Both the position numbers and the translations under genes were made by a program. Source: Catellatospora sp. KI3 (GTDB taxonomy: Bacteria; Actinomycetota; Actinomycetes; Mycobacteriales; Micromonosporaceae). Taken from it: a DNA stretch of 64,000 nt. Each line of letters begins with the position of its first letter. Within the stretch, counting starts at the first letter, position 1. Location of the stretch: assembly GCF_029948125.1 (NCBI RefSeq), contig NZ_JASAMB010000015.1, forward strand, positions 1 to 64,000. Direction: 5' to 3'. This document shows positions 38,368 through 57,435 of this stretch, in pieces. The notes beneath the pieces are model-generated. The model was not told the origin of the DNA and made no database searches. It was given only the letters and a program-made list of their open reading frames with translations.

Positions 38368-39054
38368 ATGCCCCGCCCGAGTCAGGCGCTGCTCAGCCGC
38401 CGACGCATCGTCGAGACGGCCGCCCGGCTCATCGACGCCGACGGGCTGGAGGCGTTCTCCACCCGGCGCCTGGCCGGTGAGCTGGGGGTGCGCGGGCCGT
38501 CGCTGTACAACCACTTCGCCAACAAGGACGAGATCCTGGACGCGGTCGCCGACGCGGTGATCGCCGAGGTGGACGTGTCGGTCTTCGGCACGCACGGCTG
38601 GCGGGAGGCGCTGCTGGGCTGGGGCACGTCCTACCGCGACGCGCTCGCCGCGCACCCGAACATCGTCCCGTACCTGGCCCAGGGCCCGGGGCGGCGCCCG
38701 GCCGCGCTGGCCATGGCCGACGCGGTCTACGGCGGCCTGGTCAAGGCGGGCTGGCCGCCCGCGCGGGCCACCCACATCGGCGCGGTCATGCGCTACCTGG
38801 TCGCGGGCTCGGCGCTGGGCTCGTTCGCGCGCGGCTTCGTCGAGGACCCCGAGCTGTACGCCGCGCACTACCCGCACCTCAGCCAGGCCCACCGCCTGGC
38901 CGGGCACCAGCGCAGCGTCGACGAGGGCGCGTTCCGGCTGGGCCTGCAGGCGCTCATCACCGGCCTGGCCGCCGAGTACGAGGCCACCATCGGCCCCCTC
39001 CCGCCTCTGGAGCCGAGCGCCGACTCGTACTACAGTCGAAACTTGCAGCGCTAG
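38368..39054 (+). CDS. TetR family regulator
   Basis: A 228 aa repressor-type protein. The N-terminal helix-turn-helix is LGVRGPSLYNHFANKDEILDA, preceded by IVETAARLIDADGLEAFSTR; the remainder is an all-helical ligand domain. It is divergent from an acyl-CoA dehydrogenase and upstream of aldehyde and alcohol dehydrogenases. Near-identical palindromes lie before both targets. The ligand is probably an acyl-CoA. ATG 38368 follows AGGAGGAG. Its TAG stop lies inside the second operator. Confidence 0.9.
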   Translation: MPRPSQALLSRRRIVETAARLIDADGLEAFSTRRLAGELGVRGPSLYNHFANKDEILDAVADAVIAEVDVSVFGTHGWREALLGWGTSYRDALAAHPNIVPYLAQGPGRRPAALAMADAVYGGLVKAGWPPARATHIGAVMRYLVAGSALGSFARGFVEDPELYAAHYPHLSQAHRLAGHQRSVDEGAFRLGLQALITGLAAEYEATIGPLPPLEPSADSYYSRNLQR

Positions 39055-39060
39055 TTTTCG
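39037..39060. promoter_or_regulatory. TetR-type operator 2 (before the aldehyde dehydrogenase)
   Basis: CGAAACTTGCAGCGCTAG continues into TTTTCG; the arms are CGAAACT and AGTTTTCG. It matches operator 1 read on the opposite strand, including CAGCG and TAGTTTT. It overlaps the tetR stop codon and a likely TAGTTT -10 box, 57 bases before the next start. Confidence 0.78.
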
Positions 39061-41793: not shown

Positions 41794-44562
41794 TCAGGTC
41801 AGGGCTTTGTGGAGTTCGATGCGGGAGCGGATGCCCAGGCGGCTGAAGATGTTGCGCATGTGGTGGTCGACGGTGCGGGTGCTGAGGAACAGCTGCGCCG
41901 CCACCTCCCGGTTCGTCGCCCCGTCCACGACCAGCCGGGCGATCTGGAGCTGCTGCGCGGTCAGCACCTCGACCGCGGTGACCTCCGGCGCCTGCACGGC
42001 CTCCCCGGCGGCGCGCAGCTCGGCGCGGGCCTGCTCGATCCAGGTCGGCATGTCCAGCCGGGTGAACGTCTCCAGGCATCGGTGCAGGTGCTCCCGGGCG
42101 TCCCGGGGGCGGCGGCTGCGCCGCAGCTCCTGGCCGTACAGCAGCTCGGTGCGGGCGCGCTCGTAATCGGACTCGGCGGCCCGGTGCAGCAGCAGCGCCC
42201 GCTGGAACCACTCGTCGGCCTCGGCGCTGGCGCGCGGGGCGAGCAGTGCCCGGCACCGGGCCGCCAGTGCCCGCCGGGCCGGGTCGCCGGTGGCGTCGGC
42301 CCAGCTGGAGAAGCTGTTCAGCGCGGGCAGGGCCCGTTCGCGTTCGTCGGCGCGTACCGCGGCCTCGACCAGCCAGGGTGTGGCCAGCGCCTGCACCACC
42401 ACGTGCCCGCGCCCGGTGACCGGGTCGGCGATGGCGGCGATGCGGGTGACCGCGTCGGCGGGGCGCCCGCCGAGCAGGTCGAGCACCGCCTGCGCCCACT
42501 GGGTGAGCGCCTTGGGCCGGTTGGCGCGGCCCGCGCCGGGGGCGAGTTCGATCTCGCGGACGCGGCGCAGGCAGGCGTCGCGGTCGCCGCGTACGGCGGC
42601 GAGCACCGCGAGCATGCCGAGGTGGTCGGCGGCGTAGTTGTCCTGGCCGCCGGCGCGCGCGGCGCGCAGCCCGTGCAGGCTGGTGGCGGTGGCGGCCTCG
42701 TGGCGGCCGAGCCAGTACTCGGCGTACGCGGTCATCTCCAGGGCCAGCGGCAGCTCGCAGACCTCGCCGGTCTCGCGGACCACCTCGACGGCGCGCGCGG
42801 CCAGCCGGTGCGCGCCGATGTCGTCGGCCAGCAGCAGCGCGCTGGCGGCGGCGCAGGTCAGCGTGGTGGCCCGGTCGACCTCCCCGGCCAGCTCGATGAC
42901 CCGCCGCAGCGGCGCGACGGCCCGGTCGTGCCGCCCCAGGAAGGTCGCCGCGAAGCCCGCGAAGTGCTCGAAGATCACATTGAGGTACGGCGGATCGTCG
43001 GCGCGCCGCAGCCTCGCCGCCCGCAGCGCCACCTCGCCGAAGCGCGGGTAGTCGCCGGAGAAGCACAGCGCCTCCCCGACCCGCAGCAGCGCGTGCACGG
43101 CCAGCTCGCGGTCGGTGGCGGCGAGCCGGGCGGCAGTGGCCAGCAGCGTGTCGGCGGCGGTGGCGGTGGCCCCGGCGCGCAGCTCGATCTCCCCGGCCAG
43201 CACCTCGCTCTCGCCCACCACCGCCTGGTCGCGGGTGGCGGGGCGGGCCTGGCGCAGCAGCCGCCGGGCGCGCTGCGGGCTGCCCGACTGCCAGGCGTAC
43301 CGCGCGGCGGTGACCAGCCGGATCGCCGCCCCGACCGGTTCGTCGCTCAGCTGGGCCGCGTGCTCCAGCGCGGTGGCGGCGCGGGAGTAGCCGCCGCAGG
43401 CCGAGCCGCCCGCCGCGGCGGCGTGCTCCAGCTCCTCGGCCAGCGCCGGGTCGGGTCCGTGCGCGGCGGCGGCCAGGTGCACGGCGCGGCGCAGCCGGTC
43501 CCGGTCGGGGTCGAGGACGTCGGCCAGGTGCAGGTGGGCGGCGCGGCGGCGGGCCAGCGGGGCCTCCTCGTACGCCAGGGCGCGCACCATGGGCTGGGCG
43601 AAGACGACGGCGCCCCGGTCGACCCGGACCAGCCCCTGGCGTTCGGCCGGGGCCAGCGCGCCGATGTCGACGCCGTCCGCGCGGGCGGCGCGCAGCAGCC
43701 CGGCGGCGTCCATCTCGTCGTCGGCGGCGGCCAGCAGCAGCAGCCAGCGGGTGTCGGCGGGCAGCCGGTCGAGCCGTTCGCGGTACGCCAGGCGCAGCAC
43801 GCTGCCCTCGGGCAGCCGGGTGGGCAGCGGCGCGTCGCCCTCCCGTTGGGCCGGGGTGAGGCAGCGGGCCAGTTCGGTCAGCGCCTGCGGGTTGCCCGCG
43901 GCGACCGCGGCCAGCGCCGCGGCGGCGTCGTCGTCGAGCGGGGCGTCGCCGTCGGCGAGCAGGTCGGCCAGCAGCTGCCGGGCCGCGTCCGGCGCCAGCG
44001 GTTCCAGCGCGTGGTACGGCACGCCCGCCAGGGTGGTGCCGGGGCCGGCGGTGAGCAGCATGGCGACCCGCTGCCCGCGCAGCCGCCGGGCGGCGAAGCC
44101 GAGCACCGCCATGGACGGCCGGTCGACCGCGTCGGCGTCGTCGACGCAGCACAGCACGGGCCGCTCGCGGCCGAGCGCGCCGAGCAGCGTGAGCACGGCC
44201 ATGGACAGGGCGAGCCGGTCGGGTCCGGCGCAGCCGCCGGCGGTCAGCACCCCGTGCAGCACCTTCGCCTGGTGCGGCGGCAGCAGTCCGGGGCGGTCGC
44301 CGACCGGCTGGAGCAGGCCGTGCAGGGCCGCGTACGGCAGGTCGGCCTCGTCGTGCAGGCCGCCGACCCCGAGCACCGTCCAGCCGGGTGCGCGGGCGGC
44401 GGTGTGGCGCAGCAGCGCGGTGCGGCCGGAGCCCGGGTCGCCGTGCAGCAGCAGCGCGCCGCCGGCGCCCGCCTCGGCGCGTACCAGCAGGTCGGCCACG
44501 GTCTCCCGGAGGCGGTCGCGGCCGCGCAGCATAGGTATGTGCACTGAAGATGCATTTACCAT
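41794..44562 (-). CDS. LAL-type LuxR family regulator (large ATP-binding)
   Basis: A 922 aa regulator. An N-terminal AAA-like domain carries LLHGDPGSGRTALLRH as P-loop and VLCCVDDADAVD as Walker B. A long helical (TPR-like) middle follows. The C-terminal LuxR helix-turn-helix is at about 865-915 (LTAQQLQIARLVVDGATNREVAAQL). The P-loop has Arg where Lys is expected. LAL proteins often activate catabolic or antibiotic operons in response to small molecules. ATG 44562 is used; ATG 44532 is possible. Confidence 0.88.
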   Translation of the reverse strand: MVNASSVHIPMLRGRDRLRETVADLLVRAEAGAGGALLLHGDPGSGRTALLRHTAARAPGWTVLGVGGLHDEADLPYAALHGLLQPVGDRPGLLPPHQAKVLHGVLTAGGCAGPDRLALSMAVLTLLGALGRERPVLCCVDDADAVDRPSMAVLGFAARRLRGQRVAMLLTAGPGTTLAGVPYHALEPLAPDAARQLLADLLADGDAPLDDDAAAALAAVAAGNPQALTELARCLTPAQREGDAPLPTRLPEGSVLRLAYRERLDRLPADTRWLLLLAAADDEMDAAGLLRAARADGVDIGALAPAERQGLVRVDRGAVVFAQPMVRALAYEEAPLARRRAAHLHLADVLDPDRDRLRRAVHLAAAAHGPDPALAEELEHAAAAGGSACGGYSRAATALEHAAQLSDEPVGAAIRLVTAARYAWQSGSPQRARRLLRQARPATRDQAVVGESEVLAGEIELRAGATATAADTLLATAARLAATDRELAVHALLRVGEALCFSGDYPRFGEVALRAARLRRADDPPYLNVIFEHFAGFAATFLGRHDRAVAPLRRVIELAGEVDRATTLTCAAASALLLADDIGAHRLAARAVEVVRETGEVCELPLALEMTAYAEYWLGRHEAATATSLHGLRAARAGGQDNYAADHLGMLAVLAAVRGDRDACLRRVREIELAPGAGRANRPKALTQWAQAVLDLLGGRPADAVTRIAAIADPVTGRGHVVVQALATPWLVEAAVRADERERALPALNSFSSWADATGDPARRALAARCRALLAPRASAEADEWFQRALLLHRAAESDYERARTELLYGQELRRSRRPRDAREHLHRCLETFTRLDMPTWIEQARAELRAAGEAVQAPEVTAVEVLTAQQLQIARLVVDGATNREVAAQLFLSTRTVDHHMRNIFSRLGIRSRIELHKALT

Positions 44563-44627: not shown

Positions 44628-45242
44628 TCAGCCCAGCCCGGTCGCCATGGCGTTGAGCAGCAGCGCGGTGACCGTACGGGTCATCACCGCCGCCGCCTGC
44701 TCCTCGTCCAGCCCCAGCCCTTCGCGCATCATCGACCACGCGGGCCACATCGTCGACGCGATCAGCGCGTGCAGCAGCTGGTCGCGGCCCGCGCCCGCCA
44801 TCTCCAGCTCGGGCGCGAACAGCACCTCGATCTCCTCGCGCACCCGCGCGATGTGCTTGAGCCGGTTGCGCCGCAGCTGCGCCGAGTACGGCTCACGCAC
44901 CTGCGCCGCCCGCGCCATCGGGGCGATCAGCTGCAGCAGCCGCACCCGCTGGGCGCAGAACTCGGCCACCCGCTGCCGCAGCGGCAGGTTCGGCGGCACC
45001 GGCTGGAACGCCGCGTCCTGCGCCGCCAGCACCTGGCGGCCGCTGGCCTCGAACAGCGTCTCCATGTCGGCGAAGTTGGTCCACAGCGCCCGCAGCGACA
45101 CCCCGGCCCGCTCGGCGATCCGCTCCCCGGTCGGCCGCAGGTCGCCCTCGGCGATCAGCGCCAGGTGCGCGTCCACGATGGCCGCCCGCGTCCGCTCCGC
45201 CCGAGCCGTCCGCCCGTCCACCCGCCCCTCAACCTTCCCCAT
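44628..45242 (-). CDS. TetR family regulator
   Basis: A 204 aa regulator with helix-turn-helix GERIAERAGVSLRALWTNFADMETLFE and an all-helical ligand domain. It is divergent from the thiolase gene. It is the best candidate to bind TGCACT-N3-AGTGCA, since one such site lies in the intergenic region beside it. ATG 45242 was preferred to GTG 45257, which lacks a properly spaced ribosome site. Confidence 0.85.
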   Translation of the reverse strand: MGKVEGRVDGRTARAERTRAAIVDAHLALIAEGDLRPTGERIAERAGVSLRALWTNFADMETLFEASGRQVLAAQDAAFQPVPPNLPLRQRVAEFCAQRVRLLQLIAPMARAAQVREPYSAQLRRNRLKHIARVREEIEVLFAPELEMAGAGRDQLLHALIASTMWPAWSMMREGLGLDEEQAAAVMTRTVTALLLNAMATGLG

Positions 45243-45267
45243 CCCCGGCGCCCCCACCCTTTCACCA

Positions 45268-45330: not shown

Positions 45331-45416
45331 CGGGGGTGGGCCGGGCCAGGGGTCGAGACCGGCCGGTGTGCTCGCAGAGTGTAGTCGCGCCCGGCGGGCC
45401 GGGGCGCGAATTTAGA

Positions 45417-45431
45417 TGCACTCTGAGTGCT
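45417..45431. promoter_or_regulatory. TGCACT-N3-AGTGCA operator A (thiolase)
   Basis: TGCACTCTGAGTGCT: inverted ACT/AGT halves around three bases, matching sites at 51785 and 54246. It lies 147 bases before the thiolase start, beside a TetR gene. Confidence 0.7.
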
Positions 45432-45451
45432 GACTGTAGCGGTAACCGATT

Positions 45452-45463
45452 TGTGGCGCCACA
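45452..45463. promoter_or_regulatory. Palindrome TGTGGCGCCACA
   Basis: Perfect 12-base palindrome between operator A and the thiolase gene, flanked by CCGATT/CCGATG. Possible second operator; the regulator is unknown. Confidence 0.35.
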
Positions 45464-45577
45464 CCGATGTCAAGGTCGGCGGCATGGTGACGTGATCCAC
45501 GGGTGGGACTCGTTGACACGAGGTGGAAAGAAGTCGCAGCTTTAGTGCACATAGTTTGGCCATACTCCCGAAAGGAC

Positions 45578-46804
45578 ATGCCTGTGCCTGAAGCTGTCGT
45601 GGTCGCCGCCGCCCGCACGCCGATCGGCCGCGCCAACAAGGGGTCGCTCGTCGACCTGAGGCCCGACGACCTGGCGGTCGCCGCGGTGCGCGCCGCCCTG
45701 GCCGCCGTGCCGCAGCTCGACCCGCGCGAACTCGACGACCTGGTGCTCGGCTGCGGCCAGCCCGCGGGCGAGCAGGGCCACAACCTCGGCCGCGTCGTCG
45801 CGGTCATGCTGGGGCTGGACCGGCTGCCCGGCACCACGGTCAACCGGTACTGCGCCTCCTCGCTGCAGTCCACCCGGATGGCCCTGCACGCCATCCGCGC
45901 CGGGGAGGGCGACGCCTTCCTGTCCGTCGGCGTGGAGCTGGTGTCGCACTACGGCAACGGCCGCAGCGACGGCACGCCGGGCACCCGCAACACCGTCTTC
46001 GACGCGGCCGTGGCCCGCACCGAGCGGCGTACCGGCGAGGGCACCGGGCCGTGGCAGGACCCGCGCGAGGACGGCGAGCTGCCCGACGTGTACATCGCCA
46101 TGGGCCAGACCGCCGAGAACGTCGCCGAGAGGTTCGGCGTGTCCCGGCAGGAGCAGGACGAGTTCGCCTGCCGCTCGCAGAACCTGGCCGAGCAGGCCGT
46201 CGCGGCCGGGTTCTGGGCGCGCGAGATCACCCCGGTGACCAGGCCGGACGGTACGGTCGTCAGCGCCGACGACGGCCCGCGCCCCGGCGTCACCATGGCG
46301 GCGCTGGCCGGGCTCGCACCCACGTTCCGGCCCGACGGCACGGTGACGGCCGGCAACTGCTGCCCGCTCAACGACGGCGCCGCCGCGGTCGTCATCATGT
46401 CGGACCGGCGGGCCCGGGAGCTGGGCATCACGCCGCTGGCCCGGATCGTGTCCACCGGCGTGTCCGCGCTGTCGCCCGAGATCATGGGCATGGGCCCGGT
46501 CGAGGCGTCGCGGATGGCGCTGGCCCGCGCGGGCATGTCCATCTCCGACGTCGACCTGGTCGAGATCAACGAGGCGTTCGCGGCGCAGGTGGTGCCCAGC
46601 GCCCGCGAGCTGGGCCTGGACTGGGACCGCCTGAACGTCAACGGCGGCGCCATCGCGGTCGGTCACCCCTTCGGCATGACCGGCGCCCGCATCACCACCA
46701 CCCTGCTCAACTCCCTGAGCTGGCACGACAAGACCATCGGCCTGGAGACCATGTGCGCCGCCGGCGGCCAGGGCATGGCCATGGTCCTCGAACGCATCTC
46801 CTGA
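45578..46804 (+). CDS. Thiolase (acetyl-CoA C-acyltransferase)
   Basis: A 408 aa thiolase. The nucleophile Cys92 is in VNRYCASSLQSTRMA, the His in GGAIAVGHPFGMTGAR and the second Cys in LETMCAAGGQGMAM. It closes the beta-oxidation cycle by cleaving 3-ketoacyl-CoA and would complete the pathway set of this region. ATG 45578 follows GAAAGGAC. A strong hairpin follows its stop. Confidence 0.93.
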   Translation: MPVPEAVVVAAARTPIGRANKGSLVDLRPDDLAVAAVRAALAAVPQLDPRELDDLVLGCGQPAGEQGHNLGRVVAVMLGLDRLPGTTVNRYCASSLQSTRMALHAIRAGEGDAFLSVGVELVSHYGNGRSDGTPGTRNTVFDAAVARTERRTGEGTGPWQDPREDGELPDVYIAMGQTAENVAERFGVSRQEQDEFACRSQNLAEQAVAAGFWAREITPVTRPDGTVVSADDGPRPGVTMAALAGLAPTFRPDGTVTAGNCCPLNDGAAAVVIMSDRRARELGITPLARIVSTGVSALSPEIMGMGPVEASRMALARAGMSISDVDLVEINEAFAAQVVPSARELGLDWDRLNVNGGAIAVGHPFGMTGARITTTLLNSLSWHDKTIGLETMCAAGGQGMAMVLERIS

Positions 46805-46812
46805 CGGCAGGC

Positions 46813-46851
46813 CGGCCGCCCCGGCACCCGTCGAGGGTGCCGGGGCGGCCG
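46813..46851. terminator. GC-rich hairpin after the thiolase gene
   Basis: CGGCCGCCCCGGCACCC pairs perfectly with GGGTGCCGGGGCGGCCG around GTCGA, a 17-base stem starting 9 bases after the stop. No T-run. Confidence 0.85.
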
Positions 46852-46854
46852 CCT

Positions 46855-46917
46855 AGTTGATCAGGAACCTGTGCACATGACACGCCGTCGAGCCGTGCCA
46901 TAGGTTCATGATCGACA
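46855..46917. repeat. GTTGATCATGA repeat family, short diverged copy
   Basis: GTTGATCAGGAACCTGTGCA, then TGACACGCCGTCGA, then TAGGTTCATGATCGAC. Both ends resemble the outer arm of the element at 27861 and the middle matches its inner TGACACGCCGTCGA, so it is a contracted palindrome of about 62 bases between convergent genes. Confidence 0.75.
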
Positions 46918-46919
46918 CG

Positions 46920-48200
46920 TCAGGGGAGGGTGACCGCCGGCGGGGTGGGGCGGGGGGTGGGGTATTCGGTGACGGGGCTGGTGGGGGTGTCGTCGGTGGT
47001 GTAGACGGGGCCGAAGAAGACCTGGGTGCCGGCCTCGATCTTGGTGAGGCGGTAGCCGCCGTAGCCGGAGTGGTCGGTCTTGCTGTAGCGGAACGGGGCG
47101 TAGCCGGGGCCGGTGAAGCCGTTCTTCTCGACGGCGGCGAGCAGGCCCTCGCGGGTCAGGTCCTTGCCGGCGTTCTGCAGGGCCTGGACGAAGGTGTACG
47201 CGACCGACATGCCGTAGACGGTGTTGCCGTTGAACGGGGCGCTGCCGTTGTACTTGTCGTGGATCTTCTTGAACATCGCGGTCCACGGGTCGTTCAGGTC
47301 CAGCGGCGCGGGCAGGTTCGAGGCGCCCACGACGCCCTCCAGCAGCACCTTGCCCTCACCGAGCAGCTTGGACAGGGTCTGGTAGTCCGAGCCGACGTTG
47401 GAGACCACCCACTGCGGCCTGAAGCCCAGGCGGGCGGCGGTGCCGACGGACAGGGCGGTGAAGCCGGGCACGGTCGCCAGCACGACGACCTCGCACCCGG
47501 CCGCCTTCAGGGCGCCGATCTGCGGGGCCACGTTCTGGTTGGTGACGACGTACTTCTCCTTGGCGACCACGGCACCGGCGCCGAGCACCGCCTCGACGCC
47601 GACCAGGCTGTCACGGCCGAAGTCGTCGTCCTGGCCGAAGAAGCAGGTCTTCTTGCCCGCGAAGTTCGCCTTCACGTGGGTGGCCAGGATCTTGCCCTCG
47701 ACGGTGTAGTCGGTGTTGAAGCCGAACGTGCCCGGGTACTTGTCGGGCTGGTTCCAGTTGCGGCTGCCGGAGGCGACGAACAGGTCCGGCACCCGGTTGG
47801 TCTTGAGGAAGTCGAGCACGCCGCTGTGGGTGGGGGTGCCCAGCCCGTTGAGGATCGCGAACACCTTGTCCTGGAGCACCAGCTGGCGCACCACGGTCTG
47901 GGTGTTGGCCGGGTTGTACCCGTCGTCCATGATCTTGTACGTGATCTTGCGGCCGTTCACCCCGCCGTTGGCGTTGACGTAGTCGAAGTACGCCTTGCTC
48001 GCCGGGGCGATCTCGGAGTATCCGGCCGAGGCGGGACCGGTCAGCGGCATGTGCGTGCCGACGACGATCTCGGTGGCGGTGACGCCGGGGACCTCGACGC
48101 CCGCGGGCGGGGTCTGGCCGTCGTCGCTGCACGCCGCGGCGGCGGTGAGCAGTGCGGCCGCGGTGGCGATTGCCAGCGTACGGCGCATCAGGCGGTTCAT
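46920..48200 (-). CDS. Branched-chain amino acid-type ABC transporter binding lipoprotein
   Basis: A 426 aa periplasmic-binding protein of the LivK/type I group (Peripla_BP_6). The lipobox is LLTAAAAC, and the body begins EIVVGTHMPLTGPASAGYSE. With LivHMGF genes upstream in the same direction it completes a Liv-type importer. Members of this class import amino acids but also aromatic and short-chain acids. ATG 48200 follows AAGGGTG. An AT-rich 30-base stretch upstream may hold its own promoter. Confidence 0.9.
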   Translation of the reverse strand: MNRLMRRTLAIATAAALLTAAAACSDDGQTPPAGVEVPGVTATEIVVGTHMPLTGPASAGYSEIAPASKAYFDYVNANGGVNGRKITYKIMDDGYNPANTQTVVRQLVLQDKVFAILNGLGTPTHSGVLDFLKTNRVPDLFVASGSRNWNQPDKYPGTFGFNTDYTVEGKILATHVKANFAGKKTCFFGQDDDFGRDSLVGVEAVLGAGAVVAKEKYVVTNQNVAPQIGALKAAGCEVVVLATVPGFTALSVGTAARLGFRPQWVVSNVGSDYQTLSKLLGEGKVLLEGVVGASNLPAPLDLNDPWTAMFKKIHDKYNGSAPFNGNTVYGMSVAYTFVQALQNAGKDLTREGLLAAVEKNGFTGPGYAPFRYSKTDHSGYGGYRLTKIEAGTQVFFGPVYTTDDTPTSPVTEYPTPRPTPPAVTLP

Positions 48201-48282
48201 GACGACACCCTTCTGTCGCAATAAATTGATTGTTATCGATGTTGTTCCGTGGAGCCGTGCCGGTTGAGGAGGGAAGTCGAGG

Positions 48283-49329
48283 TCAGCGGCTCGGCAGCCG
48301 CCGCCGGGCCCAGCCGGTGACGCGGTGCAGCAGACCCTGCACCCCGCCCGGCATGGCGATCATGACGACGATCAGGGTCAGCCCGAAGACGAGCAGCGGC
48401 AGGTTGCCCTCCAGCCGCTGCGCCGCCGCGGGCGACGAGGCGACCAGCCCGCTGCTCACCTGGTGGGCCAGGTCCGGCAGCGCCACCAGCAGCAGCGCGC
48501 CCCAGACCGCCCCGGACAGGCTGCCCAGGCCTCCGATCACCACCGCCATCAGCAGGAACAGCGACAGCGTCAGCGAGAACGCGCCGGGCGAGACGCTCTG
48601 CGCCAGCACGGCGAGCAGTCCCCCGCCCAGCCCCGCCCCGGCCGCGCTGACCACGAACGCCTGCACCTGGGCGCGGGCCACGTCGATGCCGGACAGGCGG
48701 GCGGCCACCTCGTCGTCGCGGACCGCGCGCAGGGTCCGGCCGAACCGGCCGCGGACCAGGTTGGCCAGCAGCAGCATGGTAAGCAGGGCGCCGAGCAGCG
48801 CGATCCAGGCCTGCCAGCGCTCGTTCGGGAAGTACGGCCCGAGCGACAGCGGCGGCGGTTCGACGTACACGCCGAGGCCCTGCTCGCTGTTGAACAGCTC
48901 GTCGAAGGTGACCGTCGCGGCGGGCACCGCCACGGCCACGGCGAGGGTGACGCCGGCCAGGTACGGCCCGCGCAGGCGGGCGGCGGCCAGCCCGATCACG
49001 AAACCCGCGGCCATGGTGACCAGCACCCCGGCCAGCAGCGACAGCGGCAGCACGCCGTTGCCGGTCACGTCGTGCTCGGCCAGCGTGTTCTGGCACAGCG
49101 CCACGGTGTACGCGCCGACCGCCATCAGCGCCCCGTGCCCGAGCGACAGCTGCCCGCTGAGCCCGGTCAGCACGGTCAGCCCCGCCGTGGCGCACAGGTA
49201 CGCCGCGACCGTGGCCAGCTGGAAGTTGCGGAACGGGTCGAGTTCGAGGCTCAGCAGGTACAGCGCGAAGCCGGCGAGCAGGGTCAGCGCCAGGTGGCGC
49301 AGCAGCGTGGCGGAGCGCAGCAGGTTCAT
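48283..49329 (-). CDS. livM: Branched-chain-type ABC transporter permease LivM
   Basis: A 348 aa permease of the LivM group with about nine membrane segments. The family motif is GLSGQLSLGHGALMAVGAYT near the N-terminus. It has RAVRDDEVAARLSGIDVARAQVQAFVVSA as the ATPase-contact loop. It overlaps the livH stop by 4 bases. The symbol denotes the family; the substrate is unproven. Confidence 0.9.
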   Translation of the reverse strand: MNLLRSATLLRHLALTLLAGFALYLLSLELDPFRNFQLATVAAYLCATAGLTVLTGLSGQLSLGHGALMAVGAYTVALCQNTLAEHDVTGNGVLPLSLLAGVLVTMAAGFVIGLAAARLRGPYLAGVTLAVAVAVPAATVTFDELFNSEQGLGVYVEPPPLSLGPYFPNERWQAWIALLGALLTMLLLANLVRGRFGRTLRAVRDDEVAARLSGIDVARAQVQAFVVSAAGAGLGGGLLAVLAQSVSPGAFSLTLSLFLLMAVVIGGLGSLSGAVWGALLLVALPDLAHQVSSGLVASSPAAAQRLEGNLPLLVFGLTLIVVMIAMPGGVQGLLHRVTGWARRRLPSR

Positions 49330-50204
49330 GCCTGCCTCGCCACGGTCGCCGCGAACAGGCCGCCCGGCCGGACCAGCAGCACCACCAGCAGCAGCGCGAG
49401 CACCGCCATCGGGGTGACGTCGCTGCCGAGGTAGCCGCTGACGTAGGACAGGATCAGGCCGACCGACAGTCCGCCGACGACCGCGCCGGGCGGGCTGTCC
49501 AGCCCGCCGACCACAGCGGCGGTGAACGCCGACACGAAGACCAGGTCCATCGCGTGCGGGTGCAGGCCCAGCTCGGTCGGCAGCACCAGCATCGCGGCCA
49601 GCGCGCCGACCGCCGAGGCCAGCGCCCAGCCCAGCGTCAGCATGCCGCCGACGTTCACCCCGAGCAGCCGCGACACCTCCGGCGCGAAGGCGGCGGCGCG
49701 CATGCGCAGGCCGACCCCGGTACGGGTGAACAGCAGCGCCAGCCCGAGCAGCACCAGCAGCACCGCGCCGAACACGAACAGGTCGTAGCGCGACAGCAGC
49801 GGCACCCCGCCGACCTCCAGCGCGGTACGGCTGAACGGGGCGGCCGCGGCGCGGAACTCGTTGCCGTACACCATGCCCAGCGCGGCCTGCACCACCAGCA
49901 CCAGCCCGAGCGCGACGATGACCTCGGCCAGCGGCGAGCGGTGGTCCACGAAGCGCATCACCGCCCGCTCGACCAGCGCCCCGAGCAGCAGCCCGCCGAC
50001 CAGCGCCGCAAGCAGGCCGAGCCAGTACGACCCGGTCGCGGTGGTGACGGTGTACGCCGCGTACGCGGCGGCGACGGCCATCGCGCCCTGGGCGAAGTTG
50101 ACGATGCGCGCGGCGCGCCAGATCAGCACCAGTGCCAGCGCGAACGCCGCCAGCACCGCACCCTTGGACAGGCCGTCGAAGGTCAGGAACACGAACCGGT
50201 CCAC
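49326..50204 (-). CDS. livH: Branched-chain-type ABC transporter permease LivH
   Basis: A 292 aa permease of the LivH group, with the motifs RIVNFAQGAMAVAAAY and AAVVGGLDSPPGAVVGGLSVG. It has about eight membrane segments. GTG 50204 follows GAGGAGGTGCCCG. It is followed by livM with a 4-base overlap and preceded by livF with 27 bases. Confidence 0.9.
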   Translation of the reverse strand: MDRFVFLTFDGLSKGAVLAAFALALVLIWRAARIVNFAQGAMAVAAAYAAYTVTTATGSYWLGLLAALVGGLLLGALVERAVMRFVDHRSPLAEVIVALGLVLVVQAALGMVYGNEFRAAAAPFSRTALEVGGVPLLSRYDLFVFGAVLLVLLGLALLFTRTGVGLRMRAAAFAPEVSRLLGVNVGGMLTLGWALASAVGALAAMLVLPTELGLHPHAMDLVFVSAFTAAVVGGLDSPPGAVVGGLSVGLILSYVSGYLGSDVTPMAVLALLLVVLLVRPGGLFAATVARQA

Positions 50205-50231
50205 CGGGCACCTCCTCTCGGGGTCGGACGG

Positions 50232-50948
50232 TCAGAAGCCGAGGTACGCATGGCGCAGCTCCTCGTCGTCGCGCAGCCGGTCGGCGCCGGTGGCCGCGAC
50301 CACGCGGCCCAGCGCCAGCACCACGCCGGTGTCGGCGACCGACAGGGCGCTGCGCACGTTCTGCTCGACCAGCAGCACGGTCAGCCCGGTGCGGTCGCGC
50401 AGCTGCTTGAGCAGCGCCATGATCTGCGCGGTCACCTTCGGGGCCAGGCCCAGCGACGGCTCGTCGAGCAGCAGCAGCCGGGGCCGGGCCACCAGGGCGC
50501 GGCCCAGTGCCAGCATCTGCCGCTCGCCGCCGGACAGCTGGTGCCCGGCGCTGCGGCGGCGCTTGGCCAGGGGCTCGAACAGCTCGTACACCTCGGCCAG
50601 GGCCTTGTTCGCGTCGGCGCGGTCGCGGCGCCACAGGCCGCCCAGGCGCAGGTTCTCCTCGACGGTCAGCTCGGCGACCACGCCCCGGCCCTCCGGCACG
50701 TGCGCCATGCCCAGATGCACCAGCTTCTCCACCGGGACGCCGGTCAGCGGCCGCCCGTCCAGCAGCACCCGCCCGGCCGACGGCCGGACCAGGCCCGACA
50801 GCGTACGCAGCAGCGTCGTCTTGCCCGCGCCGTTGGCGCCGAGCACCGCCGCGATGGTCCCGGCGGGCACGGACAGGTCGACCTCGTGCAGCACCGGCGC
50901 GGCGCCGTACCCGGCGGTCAGCCCTTCGACCCGCAGCAGCTCGCTCAC
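50232..50948 (-). CDS. livF: ABC transporter ATP-binding protein LivF
   Basis: A 238 aa ATPase. Walker A is VLGANGAGKTTLLRTLSG, the signature QLSGGERQMLALGRAL, Walker B LLLLDEPSLGLAP. The H-loop position holds Gln in LLVEQNV, typical of LivF. GTG 50948 overlaps the livG stop by 4 bases. Confidence 0.93.
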   Translation of the reverse strand: MSELLRVEGLTAGYGAAPVLHEVDLSVPAGTIAAVLGANGAGKTTLLRTLSGLVRPSAGRVLLDGRPLTGVPVEKLVHLGMAHVPEGRGVVAELTVEENLRLGGLWRRDRADANKALAEVYELFEPLAKRRRSAGHQLSGGERQMLALGRALVARPRLLLLDEPSLGLAPKVTAQIMALLKQLRDRTGLTVLLVEQNVRSALSVADTGVVLALGRVVAATGADRLRDDEELRHAYLGF

Positions 50949-51742
50949 GCCTGCGCCCCTTCCTCGACCGCCGCGCCGAGGTACGCCTCGGCCACGGCGG
51001 GGTCGTCGCGGATCTCGTCCGGGGTGCCCTCGGCCAGCAGCCGGCCGAAGTCGAGCACCACGATCCGGCCGCAGACCCGCATCACCAGGTCCACGTGGTG
51101 CTCGACCAGCATCACCGCGCACCCGCCGTCCCCCGGCAGGCTCGTGATCACCTCGGCCAGCTCCTCGATGTCCTGCGCGCCGAGGCCGCCGGCGGGCTCG
51201 TCCAGCAGCAGCAGGCGCGGCCGGGCGGCCAGCGCGCGAGCCAGCGCGACCCGCTTGCCCACCGCGTACGGCAGCGTGCCGGGCAGGGCGTTCGCGTGCC
51301 CCGCCACCCCGAAGCGGTCCAGCAGCGCGAGCGCCTCCTCCCGCAGCCGCCGCTCGTCGCGGTCGCCGCGCGGCAGGGCGAGCAGGCCGGCGAGGAATCC
51401 GGCGCGCGCGGTGTGCCCGGCGCCGGTCATCACGTTCTCCAGCACGGTCATGCCCTTGAACAGGCCGACGCCCTGCAGGGTGCGGGCGATGCCGAGCCGG
51501 GCCAGCCGGTGCGGGCGCGGGGCCAGCGGCGCGCCGTCGAGCGCGATGGTGCCGCCGGTGGGGCGGACCAGGCCGCAGACCACGTTGAACAGGGTGGTCT
51601 TGCCCGCGCCGTTGGGGCCGATCACGCCGACCACCTGGCCGGGCGGTACGCGCAGGGACACGCCCTCCAGTGCGGTCAGGCCGCCGAACCGCACCGTGAT
51701 GCCGTGCAGGGCCAGACCGGCGGAGTCGTCGAGCGGTGTCAT
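50945..51742 (-). CDS. livG: ABC transporter ATP-binding protein LivG
   Basis: A 265 aa ATPase, first gene of the livGFHM operon. Walker A is VIGPNGAGKTTLFNVVCG, Walker B LLLLDEPAGGLG and the H-loop MLVEHHVD. The signature reads PYAVGKRVALARAL, diverged from LSGGQ but usual for LivG. ATG 51742 was preferred to GTG 51748 because GAGGTGA is correctly spaced for it. An operator palindrome lies 44 bases upstream. Confidence 0.92.
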   Translation of the reverse strand: MTPLDDSAGLALHGITVRFGGLTALEGVSLRVPPGQVVGVIGPNGAGKTTLFNVVCGLVRPTGGTIALDGAPLAPRPHRLARLGIARTLQGVGLFKGMTVLENVMTGAGHTARAGFLAGLLALPRGDRDERRLREEALALLDRFGVAGHANALPGTLPYAVGKRVALARALAARPRLLLLDEPAGGLGAQDIEELAEVITSLPGDGGCAVMLVEHHVDLVMRVCGRIVVLDFGRLLAEGTPDEIRDDPAVAEAYLGAAVEEGAQA

Positions 51743-51784
51743 CGTCACCTCGATGTGGACGCGAGCCGGAAGGGATCAAGTAAT

Positions 51785-51799
51785 TACACTTGGAGTGTA
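51785..51799. promoter_or_regulatory. TGCACT-N3-AGTGCA operator B (livG operon)
   Basis: TACACTTGGAGTGTA, a perfect inverted repeat with a three-base centre, upstream of livG. Same ACT-N3-AGT geometry as the sites at 45417 and 54246, with A/T instead of G/C at one symmetric position. Confidence 0.75.
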
Positions 51800-51901
51800 T
51801 GTTTGTGCAACGTCTCGTCAATAGCTTCGTTACCGGGCCGTGATTTCCGCTGGTGGAGCGCTGATCCGCGCCAGGCTTCACGCACCGGTGGTGTAGGAAG
51901 A

Positions 51902-53017
51902 TCAGCTCGGCGGCAGGTCGACCAGCTCCGCCAGGCGGGCCCGGTGCCGTCCCGCGCCGCCCAGCGCCAGCGCCGCGCTGCGGGCCCGCTTCAGGTGCAC
52001 GTGCGCCGGATGCTCCCAGGTGAACCCGATCCCGCCGTGCAGCTGCACGCACTCCTCCGCCGCGCGTACCGCCAGCGGCGAGCAGTGCGCCTGCGCCAGC
52101 GCCGCCGCCACCGGCGCGTCCGGATCATTCGCGGCGGCACAGGCAGCCGCGTAGCGGGCCACCGCCCGCCCCTGGGCCAGCTCCACCCACAGGTCCGCCA
52201 GCCGGTGCTTGATCGCCTGGTACGACCCGACGACCCGCCCGAACTGCCGCCGCGTGCGCAGGTGCTCGACCGTGGCGTCCAGGCACCACTGCGCCGTGCC
52301 CAGCTGCTCCGAGGCGAGCAGCGCCGCGCCGGTGACCAGCGCCGCCTCGACCGCACGGGCGGCGGTGGCGCCCAGCGCCAGCGGCCGGGCGGGTACCGCC
52401 GACAGGGTCAGGTCGCACAGCGGCCGGGTCTGGTCCAGCGACACCACGGCGGTGCGGCGCACCCCGGCGGCCGCGGCGTCCACCGCGTAGAGGCCGCTCT
52501 GCAGGCCGGTCGCGGCGGGCACCAGCAGCACGTCCGCGCCGAGCGCGTCGGCCACGCTGGTGACCGGGCCGGCCAGCACGTTGCCGGTGGCGGCGACGGT
52601 CGCGGTCAGGCCGGAGCCGGGCGCGGTGCTGAACGGGACCGCCAGCGCGACCACCGCCCCGCCCGCGATCCGGGCCAGCAGCTCGGCCGCTTCGGGCACC
52701 TCCGCGCAGGTGGTCAGCGCGGCGACCGCCAGTCCGGCCGTACCGAGGAACGGCACCGGCGCGGCGGCGCGGCCCAGCTCCTCCAGCACCACGGCCAGCT
52801 CGCAGGCCCCGGCGCCCGCCCCGCCCAGCGACTCGGGCACGGCCAGGCCGGACAGCCCGAGGTCCGCGGCGAGCAGGCGCCACAGGCGCGGGTCGGGCGC
52901 GCCGGACCGCTCCAGCCCGGCCAGCACGGCCGCGGGCGCGCAGTGGTCGGCCAGCAGCGCGCGCACCGAGGCGCGCAGCTGCTCCTCCACCTCGCCGTAG
53001 CGCAGGTCCAGGCTCAT
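51902..53017 (-). CDS. Acyl-CoA dehydrogenase-like subunit without catalytic Glu
   Basis: A 371 aa member of the acyl-CoA dehydrogenase family. The C-terminal YEGT motif is replaced (HLKRARSAALALGG), and the alternative helix position (ERxxI) is also lacking. HLRTRRQFGRVVGSYQAIKH and CVQLHGGIGFTWEHPAHVHLKR are retained FAD contacts. Adjacent to an active-looking partner with a 4-base overlap, it fits the non-catalytic subunit of the alpha2beta2 dehydrogenases known from mycobacterial steroid degradation (FadE28/FadE29 type). Confidence 0.85.
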   Translation of the reverse strand: MSLDLRYGEVEEQLRASVRALLADHCAPAAVLAGLERSGAPDPRLWRLLAADLGLSGLAVPESLGGAGAGACELAVVLEELGRAAAPVPFLGTAGLAVAALTTCAEVPEAAELLARIAGGAVVALAVPFSTAPGSGLTATVAATGNVLAGPVTSVADALGADVLLVPAATGLQSGLYAVDAAAAGVRRTAVVSLDQTRPLCDLTLSAVPARPLALGATAARAVEAALVTGAALLASEQLGTAQWCLDATVEHLRTRRQFGRVVGSYQAIKHRLADLWVELAQGRAVARYAAACAAANDPDAPVAAALAQAHCSPLAVRAAEECVQLHGGIGFTWEHPAHVHLKRARSAALALGGAGRHRARLAELVDLPPS

Positions 53018-54216
53018 CGGGGCAGGTCCTTCCAGGCGAGGTCGAGGTCGACCCGGGGTTCGGCGGGCAGGCCGAGCACCCGCTCGGCGATGATGTTGCG
53101 CAGGATCTCCGAGGTGCCGCCCTCGATCGAGTTGCCCCGGGCGCGCAGGTAGCGGTACGTGGCGCCCCGGCCGGTGAAGTCGACGACGTCCGGGCGGCTG
53201 AACTCCCAGCTGTCGTGGCGCAGCCCGGCCTCGCCGAGCAGCTCCACCTCCAGGCTGCTCAGCTGCTGGGCGAGGGTGGCGAAGGACAGCTTCACCGCTG
53301 AGCCCTCCGGTCCGGGCTCACCCGCGGCGAGCTGCTGGCGCAGCCGAACGCCGGTCAGCCGGACCGCCTCGGCCCGCACCCACAGCCGCAGCAGCTCGTC
53401 GTGCAGGGCCGGGGTGCGCAGCTCCGGGTGCTCGCGCCAGGTCCGCGCGAGCAGCCCGACCAGGCCGCCCTCGCGCGGCACCGGGCCGCCGCCGATGGCG
53501 ACCCGCTCGTTCATCAGCGTCGTCTGCGCCACCGCCCAGCCCTGGCCGACCTCGCCCAGCCGCAGCTCATCACCCAGCCGTACGTCGGTGAGGAACACCT
53601 CGTTGAACTCGGCCTCGCCGGTGAGCTGCCGCAGCGGCCGCACCTCGACGCCGGGGGCGTGCATGTCGCAGACGAAGTACGTCATGCCCCGGTGCTTGGG
53701 CACGTCGGCGTCGGTACGGGCGAGCAGGATGCCCCAGCGGGCCCGGTGCGCCATCGAGGTCCACACCTTCTGCCCGCTGACCAGCCAGCCGTCGCCGTCG
53801 CGCACCGCCCGGGTGGCCACCGCGGCCAGGTCCGATCCGGCACCGGGCTCGCTGAACAGCTGGCACCAGATCTGCTCGCCGGTCCACAGCGGACGCAGGA
53901 AGCGCTCGTGCTGCTCAGGCGTGCCGTGGCGCAGGATCGTCGGGGCGGCCATGCCCAGGCCGATGCCGATGCGCCGGGGCGTGTTGTCGGGTGCGCCCGC
54001 CGCCGCGAACAGCGCGTCCGCCCGGGGCTGCAGCTCGCGCGGCCCGGCCAGGCCGCCCAGGCCCACGGGGTAGTGCACCCAGGCCAGGCCGGCGTCGAAG
54101 CGGGCACGCAGGAACGCCAGGCGGCCGTCCTCGTCGCCCGGCGCCGGAACCGGCCGCCCGGCGAGGAACTCCTCGACCCGGCGGCGCACCTCGCCGTCGG
54201 TGACCGTGTCGTCCAC
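53014..54216 (-). CDS. Acyl-CoA dehydrogenase, catalytic subunit of a heteromeric pair
   Basis: A 400 aa dehydrogenase. It has CQLFSEPGAGSDLA, WLVSGQKVWTSMAH and a Glu at residue 237 in TLMNERVAI. That is where isovaleryl-CoA-type and FadE29-type enzymes carry the base; the C-terminal IEGGTSEIL has Gly at the classical Glu position. GTG 54216 follows CAGGGG; the open frame further upstream would run through operator C. It is translationally coupled to the partner gene downstream. Confidence 0.9.
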   Translation of the reverse strand: MDDTVTDGEVRRRVEEFLAGRPVPAPGDEDGRLAFLRARFDAGLAWVHYPVGLGGLAGPRELQPRADALFAAAGAPDNTPRRIGIGLGMAAPTILRHGTPEQHERFLRPLWTGEQIWCQLFSEPGAGSDLAAVATRAVRDGDGWLVSGQKVWTSMAHRARWGILLARTDADVPKHRGMTYFVCDMHAPGVEVRPLRQLTGEAEFNEVFLTDVRLGDELRLGEVGQGWAVAQTTLMNERVAIGGGPVPREGGLVGLLARTWREHPELRTPALHDELLRLWVRAEAVRLTGVRLRQQLAAGEPGPEGSAVKLSFATLAQQLSSLEVELLGEAGLRHDSWEFSRPDVVDFTGRGATYRYLRARGNSIEGGTSEILRNIIAERVLGLPAEPRVDLDLAWKDLPR

Positions 54217-54245
54217 TCGTACCCCTGCCTCAGCTCGTGGAAATC

Positions 54246-54260
54246 TGCACTGCCAGTGCA
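54246..54260. promoter_or_regulatory. TGCACT-N3-AGTGCA operator C (heteromeric dehydrogenase)
   Basis: TGCACTGCCAGTGCA, a perfect palindrome around one central base. It lies 29 bases before the dehydrogenase start and next to a TATATT -10-like box on the minus strand, so a bound protein would block transcription start. Confidence 0.78.
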
Positions 54261-54414: not shown

Positions 54415-54630
54415 GTGGTCGACCGTCCCGGACCCGCCCGCCGGGGGCGCGCCTGGCAGTCGCTGCTGCTGGTGCCGGTGCTCGCACCGCTGCCGGTGGG
54501 GCTGTACAACCGGCTGGAGCCGCGGCTGTGGGGCATGCCCTTCTTCTACTGGTACCAGCTCGCCGACGCGCTGCTGGCCATGCTCGTGATCACCGTCGTG
54601 TACCAGGCGACCAAGGCGCGGCGCCGATGA
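54415..54630 (+). CDS. DUF3311 small membrane protein
   Basis: A 71 aa protein with two hydrophobic segments (SLLLVPVLAPLPVGLYN and LADALLAMLVITVVYQ), ending in a basic tail. DUF3311 proteins are typically encoded directly before SSS-family solute transporters, as here with an ATGA overlap, and are thought to be accessory subunits. GTG 54415 follows GAGAGGAG. Confidence 0.88.
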   Translation: MVDRPGPARRGRAWQSLLLVPVLAPLPVGLYNRLEPRLWGMPFFYWYQLADALLAMLVITVVYQATKARRR

Positions 54631-56261
54631 CCGACCGGGGACTGGAGCTCGGCGTCTTCGCCGCACTGCTCGCCGTACTGCTGCTGCTCGGCTTCTACGC
54701 CGCCCGCTGGCGCCGCCCGCACACCCCGCAGTCGCTGGAGGAGTGGGGCGTGGGCGGCCGCGCGTTCGGCAACTGGGTCACCTGGTTCCTGCTGGGCGGC
54801 AGCATGTACACCGCGTACACCTACATCGCCGTGCCCGCCCTGGTGTACGGCGTCGGCGCGGTCGGCTTCTTCGCCGTGCCCTTCGCGATCATCACCGCGC
54901 CCATGGCGTACGTCATCAGCACCCGCACCTGGTCGGTGTCGCACGCGCACGGCTTCGTCACCTCGGCCGAGTTCACCCGCGCCCGGTTCGGCTCGCGCAG
55001 CCTCGCCGCGCTGGTGGCCGTCACCGGCATCATCGCCACCCTGCCCTACATCGCGGTGCAGCTCATCGCACTGCAGGCGCTGCTCAAGACGCTCGGCGTG
55101 GACGGCGAGTGGCCGCTGCTGCTGGCCGTCGGCACCGCCTCGCTGTGCACGTTCCGGGCCGGGCTGCGCGCCCCGGCGCTGCTGTCCATCGCCAAGGACG
55201 CGCTGCTGCTGTGGCTGCTGCTGTCGGTCGCGCTGCTGGTGGCGATGTCCGGCGGCTGGACCGCGGCGTTCCGCGGCGCCGGGGTGCGGCTGGACGGCGA
55301 CGCCTCCCCCGCCACCGGCCTGCTGCTGCCCCAGGGCGGGTCGCTGGGCTACCTCACGCTGGTGTTCGGGTCGGCGCTGGCCGTCTTCGCGTACCCGCAC
55401 GCGCTCACCGGCATCCTCGCCGCCCGCGACCGGGCCACGGTGCAGCGCAACACCGCCGCCCTGCCCGTGTACTGCCTCGCCCTCGGGCTGCTGGCACTGC
55501 TCGGCTTCTTCGCCATCGGCCAGGGCGTACGCCCCGTCGGCGGCGACCTCAACACCGTGATGCCGCAGCTGTTCCACGAGGCGTTCCCGGCCTGGTGCGC
55601 GGGCATCGCGTACGCCGCCGTCGCCGTCGCCGCGCTCATCCCGGCCGCGGTCATGTCCATCGCCGCGGCCAATCTCTTCACCCGGGGCGTCTACCGCGAA
55701 TACCTGCGCCCGCACGCCACCGCCGCCGAGGAGGCCGCGGTCAGCCGGTGGGTGTCGCTGCTGGCCAAGGTCGGCGCACTGGCGTTCATCGTGCTGCTCG
55801 ACCCGCGCTTCTCGGTGGAGCTGCAGCTCATCGGCGGCGTGATCGTGCTGCAGACGGTGCCTGCGGTGGTGCTCGGGCTGTGGACCGGCTGGTTCCACCG
55901 GTACGCGCTGATCAGCGGGCTGCTGACCGGGCTGGGCACCGGGGTGCTGCTGCTGTGGCGGGTGCCGCAGCGGGCCGCCGACGGGAGCGTGGTGAAGGCG
56001 CACTTCGGCGGATCGAACCTGCCGCTGTCGGAGTTGGGGCTCGGCGGGGGCGGCGCGGTGTACGTCGGGCTGCTCGCGCTGGCGGTCAACCTGGTCGTGG
56101 TGGTCGGCGCGACGGTGCTGCTGCGCGGGCTGCGGGTGCCCGGCGGGGTGGACCTGACCCGGCCGGCGGACTACTACGCCGACGCGGGTGACGGGGCGGC
56201 CGGCCGCGCCGAGGAGCTGATCGACGGCCGCAGCGCCCGCTCCCCCGCCCACGCCCGCTGA
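54627..56261 (+). CDS. Sodium:solute symporter (SSS), MctC-like monocarboxylate transporter
   Basis: A 544 aa transporter with about 13 membrane segments. SSS features include EEWGVGGRAFGNWVTWFLLGG, FGSRSLAALVAV and AVAALIPAAVMSIAAANLFTRGVYREY. Together with the DUF3311 partner this matches the group containing the acetate/propionate/pyruvate carrier MctC. It would suit the acid metabolism of the region. The C-terminal 40 residues are hydrophilic. Confidence 0.88.
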   Translation: MTDRGLELGVFAALLAVLLLLGFYAARWRRPHTPQSLEEWGVGGRAFGNWVTWFLLGGSMYTAYTYIAVPALVYGVGAVGFFAVPFAIITAPMAYVISTRTWSVSHAHGFVTSAEFTRARFGSRSLAALVAVTGIIATLPYIAVQLIALQALLKTLGVDGEWPLLLAVGTASLCTFRAGLRAPALLSIAKDALLLWLLLSVALLVAMSGGWTAAFRGAGVRLDGDASPATGLLLPQGGSLGYLTLVFGSALAVFAYPHALTGILAARDRATVQRNTAALPVYCLALGLLALLGFFAIGQGVRPVGGDLNTVMPQLFHEAFPAWCAGIAYAAVAVAALIPAAVMSIAAANLFTRGVYREYLRPHATAAEEAAVSRWVSLLAKVGALAFIVLLDPRFSVELQLIGGVIVLQTVPAVVLGLWTGWFHRYALISGLLTGLGTGVLLLWRVPQRAADGSVVKAHFGGSNLPLSELGLGGGGAVYVGLLALAVNLVVVVGATVLLRGLRVPGGVDLTRPADYYADAGDGAAGRAEELIDGRSARSPAHAR

Positions 56262-56411: not shown

Positions 56412-57305
56412 TCAGCTCACCAGGGGGCAGGTGATGCGGAACTCCTCGATGGAGGAGCTGCTCGGGGCCGGGCAGAGGAACTGCTCGTACCGGGTGTCGT
56501 TGTCCACGAACCGCTTGTACCAGGAGATCATGTTCCGGGCGACAGTCGTGTTCGGCGCCTGCGGGAAGAAGTGGCTGGCGCCGTTGAGCTCCACGTACGC
56601 CTTCTCGGTCGCGGACGGGATGCTGTTGTAGAACGGCTCCGAGTGCGAGGACACCGACGCGACGGTGTCGTCCTCACCCCCGATGATCATCGTGGGTACG
56701 CTCAGCGTCGACCACGACTTGGTCAGGTTCCACGGCGCCAGGGGCACCGCGGCCTGCAGCGACGGCCGGGACCGCGCCGCCTCCAGGGTGCCGCCGCCGC
56801 CCATCGAGTGGCCGCCGACCGCCAGCCGGGACGAGTCCACCCGAGACCGGACGGAGCTGGAGTTGACCAGGTAGTCCAGCGCCGCCAGCAGCTGCCGGCC
56901 GCGGCTGTCGGGCTGGTCGTACACGGAGTTGGTCTCGATGCCGATCACCACGAAGCCCTGCGAGGCCAGGCGCGGACCGAGCCAGCTGATGCTGGACCAG
57001 CTCGCCGTGTAGCCGGGGCACAGCGCGATCGCACCGAAGGTGCCCGCGCTGGTGGTGGTCGGGTAGTAGATGACCCCGCCGCCGAAGCCGCTGACCTGCA
57101 GTCGGGACACGCTGACCGAGGACGTGGCGAACGGGCCCTGGGCGGCCTCGACGCTGGCGGTGGTCGGGGCCGGACCCCGCTCGTACGGGTTGTCGGCGGC
57201 CTGCGCCGGGGACGCGGCGACGGCACCGGCCGCCAGCGCGAGCGTGAACGCGAGCAGCGTCCGTGCGCCGAGGGAGCGGCGCGTACCTGGTAGCGATGTC
57301 TGCAC
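56412..57305 (-). CDS. Secreted cutinase / polyester hydrolase (PET-hydrolase family)
   Basis: A 297 aa exported alpha/beta hydrolase; removal of a signal ending SPAQA leaves about 260 aa, the length of the Thermobifida cutinases. The similarity to TfCut2-type enzymes is strong from memory: NPYERGP start, [23 protein letters not shown] end. The triad is Ser167 (GGHSMGGGG), Asp213 (GGEDDTVA) and His245 (NGASHFF). Oxyanion residues Tyr99 and Met168 and substrate-cleft Trp192 are conserved. A C-terminal disulfide (Cys278-Cys293) is kept. It probably cleaves cutin and other polyesters. Confidence 0.92.
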
Positions 57306-57435
57306 GGGGGTGCCTCCAGCCACGGGCGGAGCCGGGCGGCTCCGGTCTACATTGACGATCGCCAGTCTTTGCGGTCGGGCACTCCCGGCGCATCGGCACA
57401 ATCGCCCGTATCGGATGGGCACGGAGCAACGCAGA

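Follow-up and report, generated by a model that had tools for sequence, protein, structure and literature searches.

A candidate TetR-type repressor of a local acyl-CoA regulon in Catellatospora, and a palindrome that would link its promoters

TetR repressors of local acyl-coenzyme A (acyl-CoA) regulons are well known, and their operators differ. KstR2, of the cholesterol-catabolism regulon in mycobacteria and Rhodococcus, is encoded near its targets and acts through one palindrome in several local promoters, given as AnCAAGnnCTTGnT in the portion of the source used here (PMC3068626). BkaR (Rv2506/MSMEG_4718), of the branched-chain keto-acid regulon, is an autoregulated repressor of local acyl-CoA genes and binds as a dimer to a palindrome, whose core is given as GTTA(N)T(N4)A(N)TAAC in the corresponding portion of its description (PMC3920632). 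A similar arrangement is described here for a stretch of 64,000 nucleotides from the soil bacterium Catellatospora sp. KI3 (contig NZ_JASAMB010000015.1, positions 1 to 64,000; hereafter the window), which encodes a TetR-family regulator, named T1, beside genes for acyl-CoA metabolism and uptake. It is very likely that T1 is an autoregulated TetR-type repressor of the thiolase/T1, LuxR-type, Liv and FadE promoters. In the proposed mechanism, the promoters of the thiolase/T1 pair, of a LuxR-type regulator gene, of the Liv uptake operon and of a two-subunit acyl-CoA dehydrogenase operon each carry a 15-bp palindrome, TRCACT-N3-AGTGYA, to which T1 would bind as a dimer. Bound T1 would cover the -10 region, as at Liv and FadE, and stop RNA polymerase. 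An inducer would free it from DNA, probably a CoA ester arising as an intermediate from the imported acid. The positions of the sites, their conservation, their overlap with -10 and -35 elements and their co-occurrence with T1 were computed; from these we infer binding by T1, binding as a dimer, repression rather than activation, the inducer and the substrate.

At up to two mismatches, five matches to the motif are present in the window, against 1.59 expected, and 3 of 100 shuffles reach five. The three sites proposed in a preliminary description of this DNA (operators A, B and C; Table 1) were all found where it had placed them, letter for letter. Operator D and a weak site proximal to T1, TGCTCGCAGAGTGTA, were absent from that description; the weak site is matched by a counterpart, TGCACGCAGAGTGTA, in six of the eight other Catellatospora loci fetched. 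Nine one-mismatch places occur in the genome outside the window, eight of them inside open reading frames (ORFs) predicted with a simple script and one outside (contig C2, 97704), and no acyl-CoA promoter was seen among the nine. Genome-wide counting of the motif gives no excess and was hence not relied on as support. Since motif counts alone are weak, it is the position of the sites and their conservation that carry the argument.

The conservation of the sites was followed in 40 loci of the family Micromonosporaceae with a T1 orthologue, hand-picked from 83 genomes, to which the window was added (41 loci, the window being included in all counts), with a scan depth of about 260-320 bp upstream of each gene. 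At up to two mismatches, a site precedes the thiolase gene in 14/14 loci, the LuxR-type gene in 17/18, FadEb in 19/21, LivG in 25/33 and T1 in 15/41; at up to three, the thiolase count stays at 14/14 and the LuxR-type, FadEb and LivG counts become 18/18, 20/21 and 30/33. T1 and the thiolase gene share a single site in L035, L036 and the window, and in the LivG rows of L052, L054 and L059 the scan took a neighbouring match, not the TACACT site. Upstream of the control genes LivK, LivM, LivH, LivF, FadEa and MctP, the corresponding numbers are 0/164 and 6/164. When the arms were permuted, 60 such palindromes averaged 0.1-0.3 hits at up to two mismatches and peaked at 1-3 across the five target genes, where the true motif gives 14-25. 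Three mismatches make a weaker test, because permuted-arm maxima are high there (8-14 for four targets, 7 for thiolase). Individual permuted motifs come as high as 23/33 at up to two mismatches within the coding sequence of the Liv genes and FadEa, and conserved codons can be the source of such counts. The preliminary description had named random occurrence of the motif genome-wide as the result that would speak against a regulon. This is what raw counts give (11 places at up to one mismatch, 28 for the reversed control), but it does not apply to the promoter positions, as the permuted-arm control indicates.

The sites were also approached by a motif-free enumeration of all exact palindromes with 6-base arms and spacers of 0-8, made for each promoter set. 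TACACT-N3 comes first at LivG, with 24/32 promoters (15/23 outside the genus), the best unrelated palindrome reaching 3, and TGCACT-N3 comes first at FadEb (10/21, mainly within the genus), the sites outside the genus being mostly imperfect there; the LuxR-type and T1 sets yield no exact palindrome that rises above the rest. In several relatives, sites are found upstream of a short-chain dehydrogenase operon, which can include kinase and ACAD11-like genes. Judged from their conservation in relatives, the sites are real operators.

The fit of the sites to promoter elements bears both on their reality and on the mode of action of T1. On the minus strand of operator B, the left arm TACACT (51799-51794) is also the -10 hexamer of a promoter TTGACG-N16-TACACT, and of the 41 LivG promoters from T1 genomes, 39 have TTGAC followed by TxCAC at a distance of 16-18; L046, which is one of the two exceptions, is cut off by the locus end. 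At operator C, the TATATT box that the site was said to abut is a -10 on the minus strand (54265-54260) and overlaps it by one base. Because TACACT is also a -10 hexamer, the G-to-A change at operator B is partly dictated by the promoter, and the earlier idea of symmetric compensatory changes (G to A, C to T) holds for the mirrored right arm, which is conserved, and less for the left. It could even be assumed that the palindromes arose by chance or simply reflect promoter sequence, TACACT being just a -10 box, as the weak excess in the window and the lack of one genome-wide would allow. This explanation is hardly credible: in 30 LivG promoters from other genera, the right arm keeps its outer TGTA to at least 90% (inner A 60-69%, inner G 80-89%), bases that no promoter element requires, and this supports operator B as a true dimer site; moreover, the whole palindrome is absent from T1-less genomes, and permuted palindromes fall short of the observed counts.

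An operator overlapping the -10 region fits repression. T1 would thus repress by occlusion, a mode fitted by the -10 overlap at the LivG and FadEb promoters. A different mode, in which T1 activates, or both activates and represses, could be suggested by the Catellatospora thiolase site, which lies 156-200 bp ahead of the start of the thiolase match and where promoter overlap is not evident. It is considered very unlikely, since the operator holds the -10 at LivG and has one base in common with it at FadEb, so that occlusion is favoured. Tandem sites were seen at one Liv promoter (L088), where two exact TACACTGGGAGTGTA operators, at 10628 and 10645 (script orientation), have starts 17 bp apart.

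The assignment of the sites to T1 comes from co-occurrence in 150 genomes of the family, the window's own included, 83 of which have a T1 orthologue (one partial). The exact sequence TACACTNNNAGTGTA is found at 47 sites in 46 genomes, all of which have T1, and in 0 of the 67 T1-less genomes; the reversed control pattern gives 5 sites in 4 genomes. All 47 sites are located 2.5-6.5 kb upstream of an orthologous LivK on the same contig, and those within fetched loci stand directly before LivG. Among the 68 genomes with a LivK of at least 60% identity, the exact site occurs in 46 of 64 with T1 and in 0 of 4 without it. The site is still present in G110 and G052, where T1 is on a different contig from the Liv operon; in the four T1-less genomes with a Liv operon (G043, G021, G025 and G005; LivK 63-68% identical), the T1-type site is absent. 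A further genome, G006, was dropped as a case of Liv unlinked from T1, its Liv contig ending 1.1 kb past LivK, where a contig break is possible. A scan of named genomes with T1 gave 5 loci, all from Catellatospora. In a class sample of 296 genomes, 18 have a T1 homologue at E <= 1e-25, among them the genome of the window and another from the family; the loci of 12 of the other 16 were fetched, and six of these have a site at up to two mismatches no more than 230 bp ahead of the TetR gene, while six have none that close. Outside the family, TTGACG-N15-TACACT stands before a divergent LivG gene in L126, and a site stands before such a gene in L123. The proposal of a TGCACT-N3-AGTGCA regulon owned by the adjacent TetR protein is thus well supported by co-occurrence, unlinked contigs, T1-less absences and distant homologues, binding by T1 being predicted from sequence.

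Co-occurrence could also arise if the sites were owned by another regulator, namely the LuxR-type ATPase protein or T2, a second TetR-family regulator encoded 5.6 kb away within the window, with T1 merely accompanying them. In favour of the LuxR-type protein, every one of the 18 promoters of its own gene keeps a site at up to three mismatches. Yet L050, L058, L063 and L064 keep sites and show no LuxR-type match in the fetched 20 kb (tblastn, 60 bits), although divergent or distant copies are possible and this search missed an ATPase-like ORF in L069; site-bearing loci outside the family have no LuxR-type match either. As for T2, the palindrome flanking its genes differs from the T1 type, and T2 is above threshold in three of the T1-less Liv genomes (G021, G005, G025) and partial in the fourth (L075), the T1-type site being absent from all four. 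Ownership by another regulator is considered improbable.

Several observations weigh against T1 as the general owner and repressor. Just 18 of the 41 T1 genes have a directly upstream site at up to three mismatches (permuted mean 2.7, maximum 10), and the exact site is missing from 37 of the 83 T1 genomes, some of which have variants. Around the T1 homologues of L065, L067 and L068, the 20 kb fetched show neither a Liv operon nor a FadE pair nor a convincing site. T1-less genomes with a Liv operon number four, two of them incomplete (80% and 69%), and the Fisher values of the association, 6e-16 over 150 genomes and 0.009 over the 68 LivK genomes, overstate its significance, the genomes sharing ancestry and kinship being uncorrected for. 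A sequence-only profile made from 63 sites recovered operator C alone in the genome of the window at E <= 10, a scan which is uninformative because the profile holds too little information for 8 Mb.

At E <= 1e-45, 97 of the 150 family genomes have a T2 homologue. The genome of the window contains exactly two matches to AACTNNCRNYGNNAGTT, both AACT-N9-AGTT palindromes flanking T2 (Table 1), and T2 probably controls the aldehyde and alcohol dehydrogenase genes and the divergent acyl-CoA dehydrogenase gene next to them. At the LivG promoter, the AACT-N9-AGTT palindrome is present in 4/4 T1-less Liv genomes vs 0/41 T1 genomes. In L076 and L078 a T2 orthologue (62-64% identical) adjoins the Liv operon, as does a partial one in L075; in G025, T2 is on a different contig from the Liv operon. 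Among the matches listed, AACTNNCRNYGNNAGTT-type sites are often at T2 genes, and the pattern alone is unspecific, with matches in 112/150 genomes and a frequent reversed control. T1 and T2 have in common a short weak match alone (about 28-31% over 36-69 residues), and they may serve one pathway. It is tentatively proposed, with rather less than even confidence, that these dissimilar TetR repressors, with the distinct palindromes TRCACT-N3-AGTGYA and AACTNNCRNYGNNAGTT, jointly govern one acid route and that the Liv promoter is handed between them, carrying a T1 operator where T1 is present and a T2-type one, often with T2 adjacent, where it is not; on this view, a hydroxy acid requiring an ACAD10/11-type kinase route would be the substrate. 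Such an operator swap at one promoter would be a natural experiment in a catabolic operon changing its repressor.

Table 1. Genes, putative operators and promoter elements discussed in the text (window coordinates unless a locus is named)
Feature	Position	Strand	Details
Operator A	45417-45431		TGCACTCTGAGTGCT, 1 mismatch; between divergent T1 and thiolase genes
Operator B	51785-51799		TACACTTGGAGTGTA, 2 mismatches; upstream of LivG
Operator C	54246-54260		TGCACTGCCAGTGCA, 0 mismatches; upstream of FadEb
Operator D	44540-44554		TGCACTGAAGATGCA; before LuxR-type ATPase regulator gene
Weak T1-proximal site	45369-45383		TGCTCGCAGAGTGTA, 3 mismatches; before T1
-35 element TTGACG	51816-51821	-	16 bp from -10 inside operator B
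T1, TetR-family regulator	44628-45257	-	209 aa; proposed motif owner; PF00440, helical model, TetR-type fold matches
LuxR-type ATPase transcriptional regulator	41794-44532	-	912 aa; PF13191 and PF00196
Thiolase	45584-46804	+	NF005890, 738.4 bits (cut-off 580)
Liv block, LivK/M/H/F/G	46920-51748	-	
LivK-type substrate-binding protein	46920-48200	-	PF13458
LivM, LivH, LivF, LivG	48283-51748	-	permeases and ATPases of a branched-chain-amino-acid-type ATP-binding cassette transporter
Acyl-CoA dehydrogenase subunit a (FadEa)	51902-53017	-	best PDB matches 6wy8_A and 4x28_D
Acyl-CoA dehydrogenase subunit b (FadEb)	53014-54216	-	best PDB matches 6wy9_A/6wy8_B and 4x28_A
MctP-like Na+/solute symporter	54627-56261	+	NF046076, 553.6 bits, under cut-off 625; divergent from operator C
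T2, second TetR-family regulator	38368-39054	+	PF00440 and PF02909
T2-type palindrome	38276-38292		AACTAACGCTGGAAGTT; between T2 and divergent acyl-CoA dehydrogenase gene
Acyl-CoA dehydrogenase, divergent from T2	37117-38268	-	
T2-type palindrome	39040-39056		AACTTGCAGCGCTAGTT; before aldehyde and alcohol dehydrogenase genes
Aldehyde and zinc alcohol dehydrogenases	39117-41653	+	
T2-type palindromes at T1-less Liv promoters	L075 10887; L076 11425; L077 4754; L078 10492		script orientation

The family assignment of T1 draws on several comparisons. In the family-model search, T1 scores 23.1 bits against PF00440 (E 6.4e-05), slightly below the cut-off of 24, and T1 proteins are well conserved in their helix-turn-helix region. 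The AlphaFold model has a mean predicted local distance difference test score (pLDDT) of 89 with helices throughout, and TetR-type regulators head its fold search, in which the best E is 1.9e-03 and no match has an E of 0.001 or below. Three weak sequence matches to solved structures were found, the best at E 5.5e-04, and neither these nor the fold search gave a ligand clue. As modelled, T1 has the N-terminal helix-turn-helix and the all-helical ligand domain of a TetR-family protein. For the LivM, LivH, LivF and LivG proteins, the top family models are those of LivM/LivH/LivF/LivG and of urea transporters, every score being below cut-off. The start codon of FadEb at 54216 was chosen by us, the ORF extending to 54261. 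Co-regulation of the divergent MctP-like gene through operator C is possible. A gene of the PF12740 (PET-hydrolase-like) family is located further on, at 56412-57422 on the minus strand, and recurs by the cluster in several genera (L044, L047, L049, L052); no operator was noticed there.

The acyl-CoA dehydrogenase encoded by the window had been described as heteromeric, and this view is upheld by comparison with solved complexes: the adjacent FadEa and FadEb genes encode a predicted two-subunit enzyme, as the two proteins have their best matches in different subunits of the 6wy8 (Tcur3481-Tcur3483) and 4x28 complexes. In several related genera, the cluster includes an LvaA/LvaC-like kinase, an ACAD11-like dehydrogenase and short-chain dehydrogenases; the best PDB matches of the dehydrogenase are ACAD11 (E 1.4e-122), and those of the kinase include the ACAD11 kinase domain. 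According to the parts of two reports used here, a pair of kinase and ACAD11-type enzyme provides the entry of 4-hydroxyacyl-CoA into beta-oxidation (PMC11342911; PMC12440821). By analogy with this module of the relatives, the substrate might be a 4-hydroxy or similarly blocked acid, a weak inference. It is weak for the genome of the window because its LvaA/LvaC- or ACAD11-like kinase and dehydrogenase pair is on another contig, C78 (L107), unlinked, with a MaoC-like ORF some 5 kb off, and the 19 kb fetched around the ACAD11-like genes have no site at up to two mismatches; three matches with 3 mismatches in that stretch were put down to chance.

The T1 locus can be compared with the described systems. 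The LvaA/LvaC and ACAD10/ACAD11 module has its likeness in the kinase and ACAD11-like dehydrogenase beside T1 in several relatives, the pair of the window genome being unlinked; no T1-like regulator or Liv transporter is mentioned in the part of PMC11342911 considered. Searches of open-access (PMC) papers gave no description of the T1 regulon or its motif; the regulon is of a conventional kind, and the uptake-and-degradation pathway is apparently undescribed. The operator, owner and target list proposed here concern a pathway that about half of the sampled family genomes retain, and the identity of the inducer would reveal the acid taken up and possibly tie a Liv-type transporter to 4-hydroxy acid degradation. 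T1 resembles KstR2 in being a TetR regulator encoded near its putative targets, with one palindrome in several local promoters of acyl-CoA-type catabolism, and resembles BkaR in its predicted autoregulation and dimer binding and in having acyl-CoA genes nearby. It is set apart from both by its operator: TRCACT-N3-AGTGYA is unlike the KstR2 palindrome in arms and spacing, and it does not contain the core bound by BkaR.

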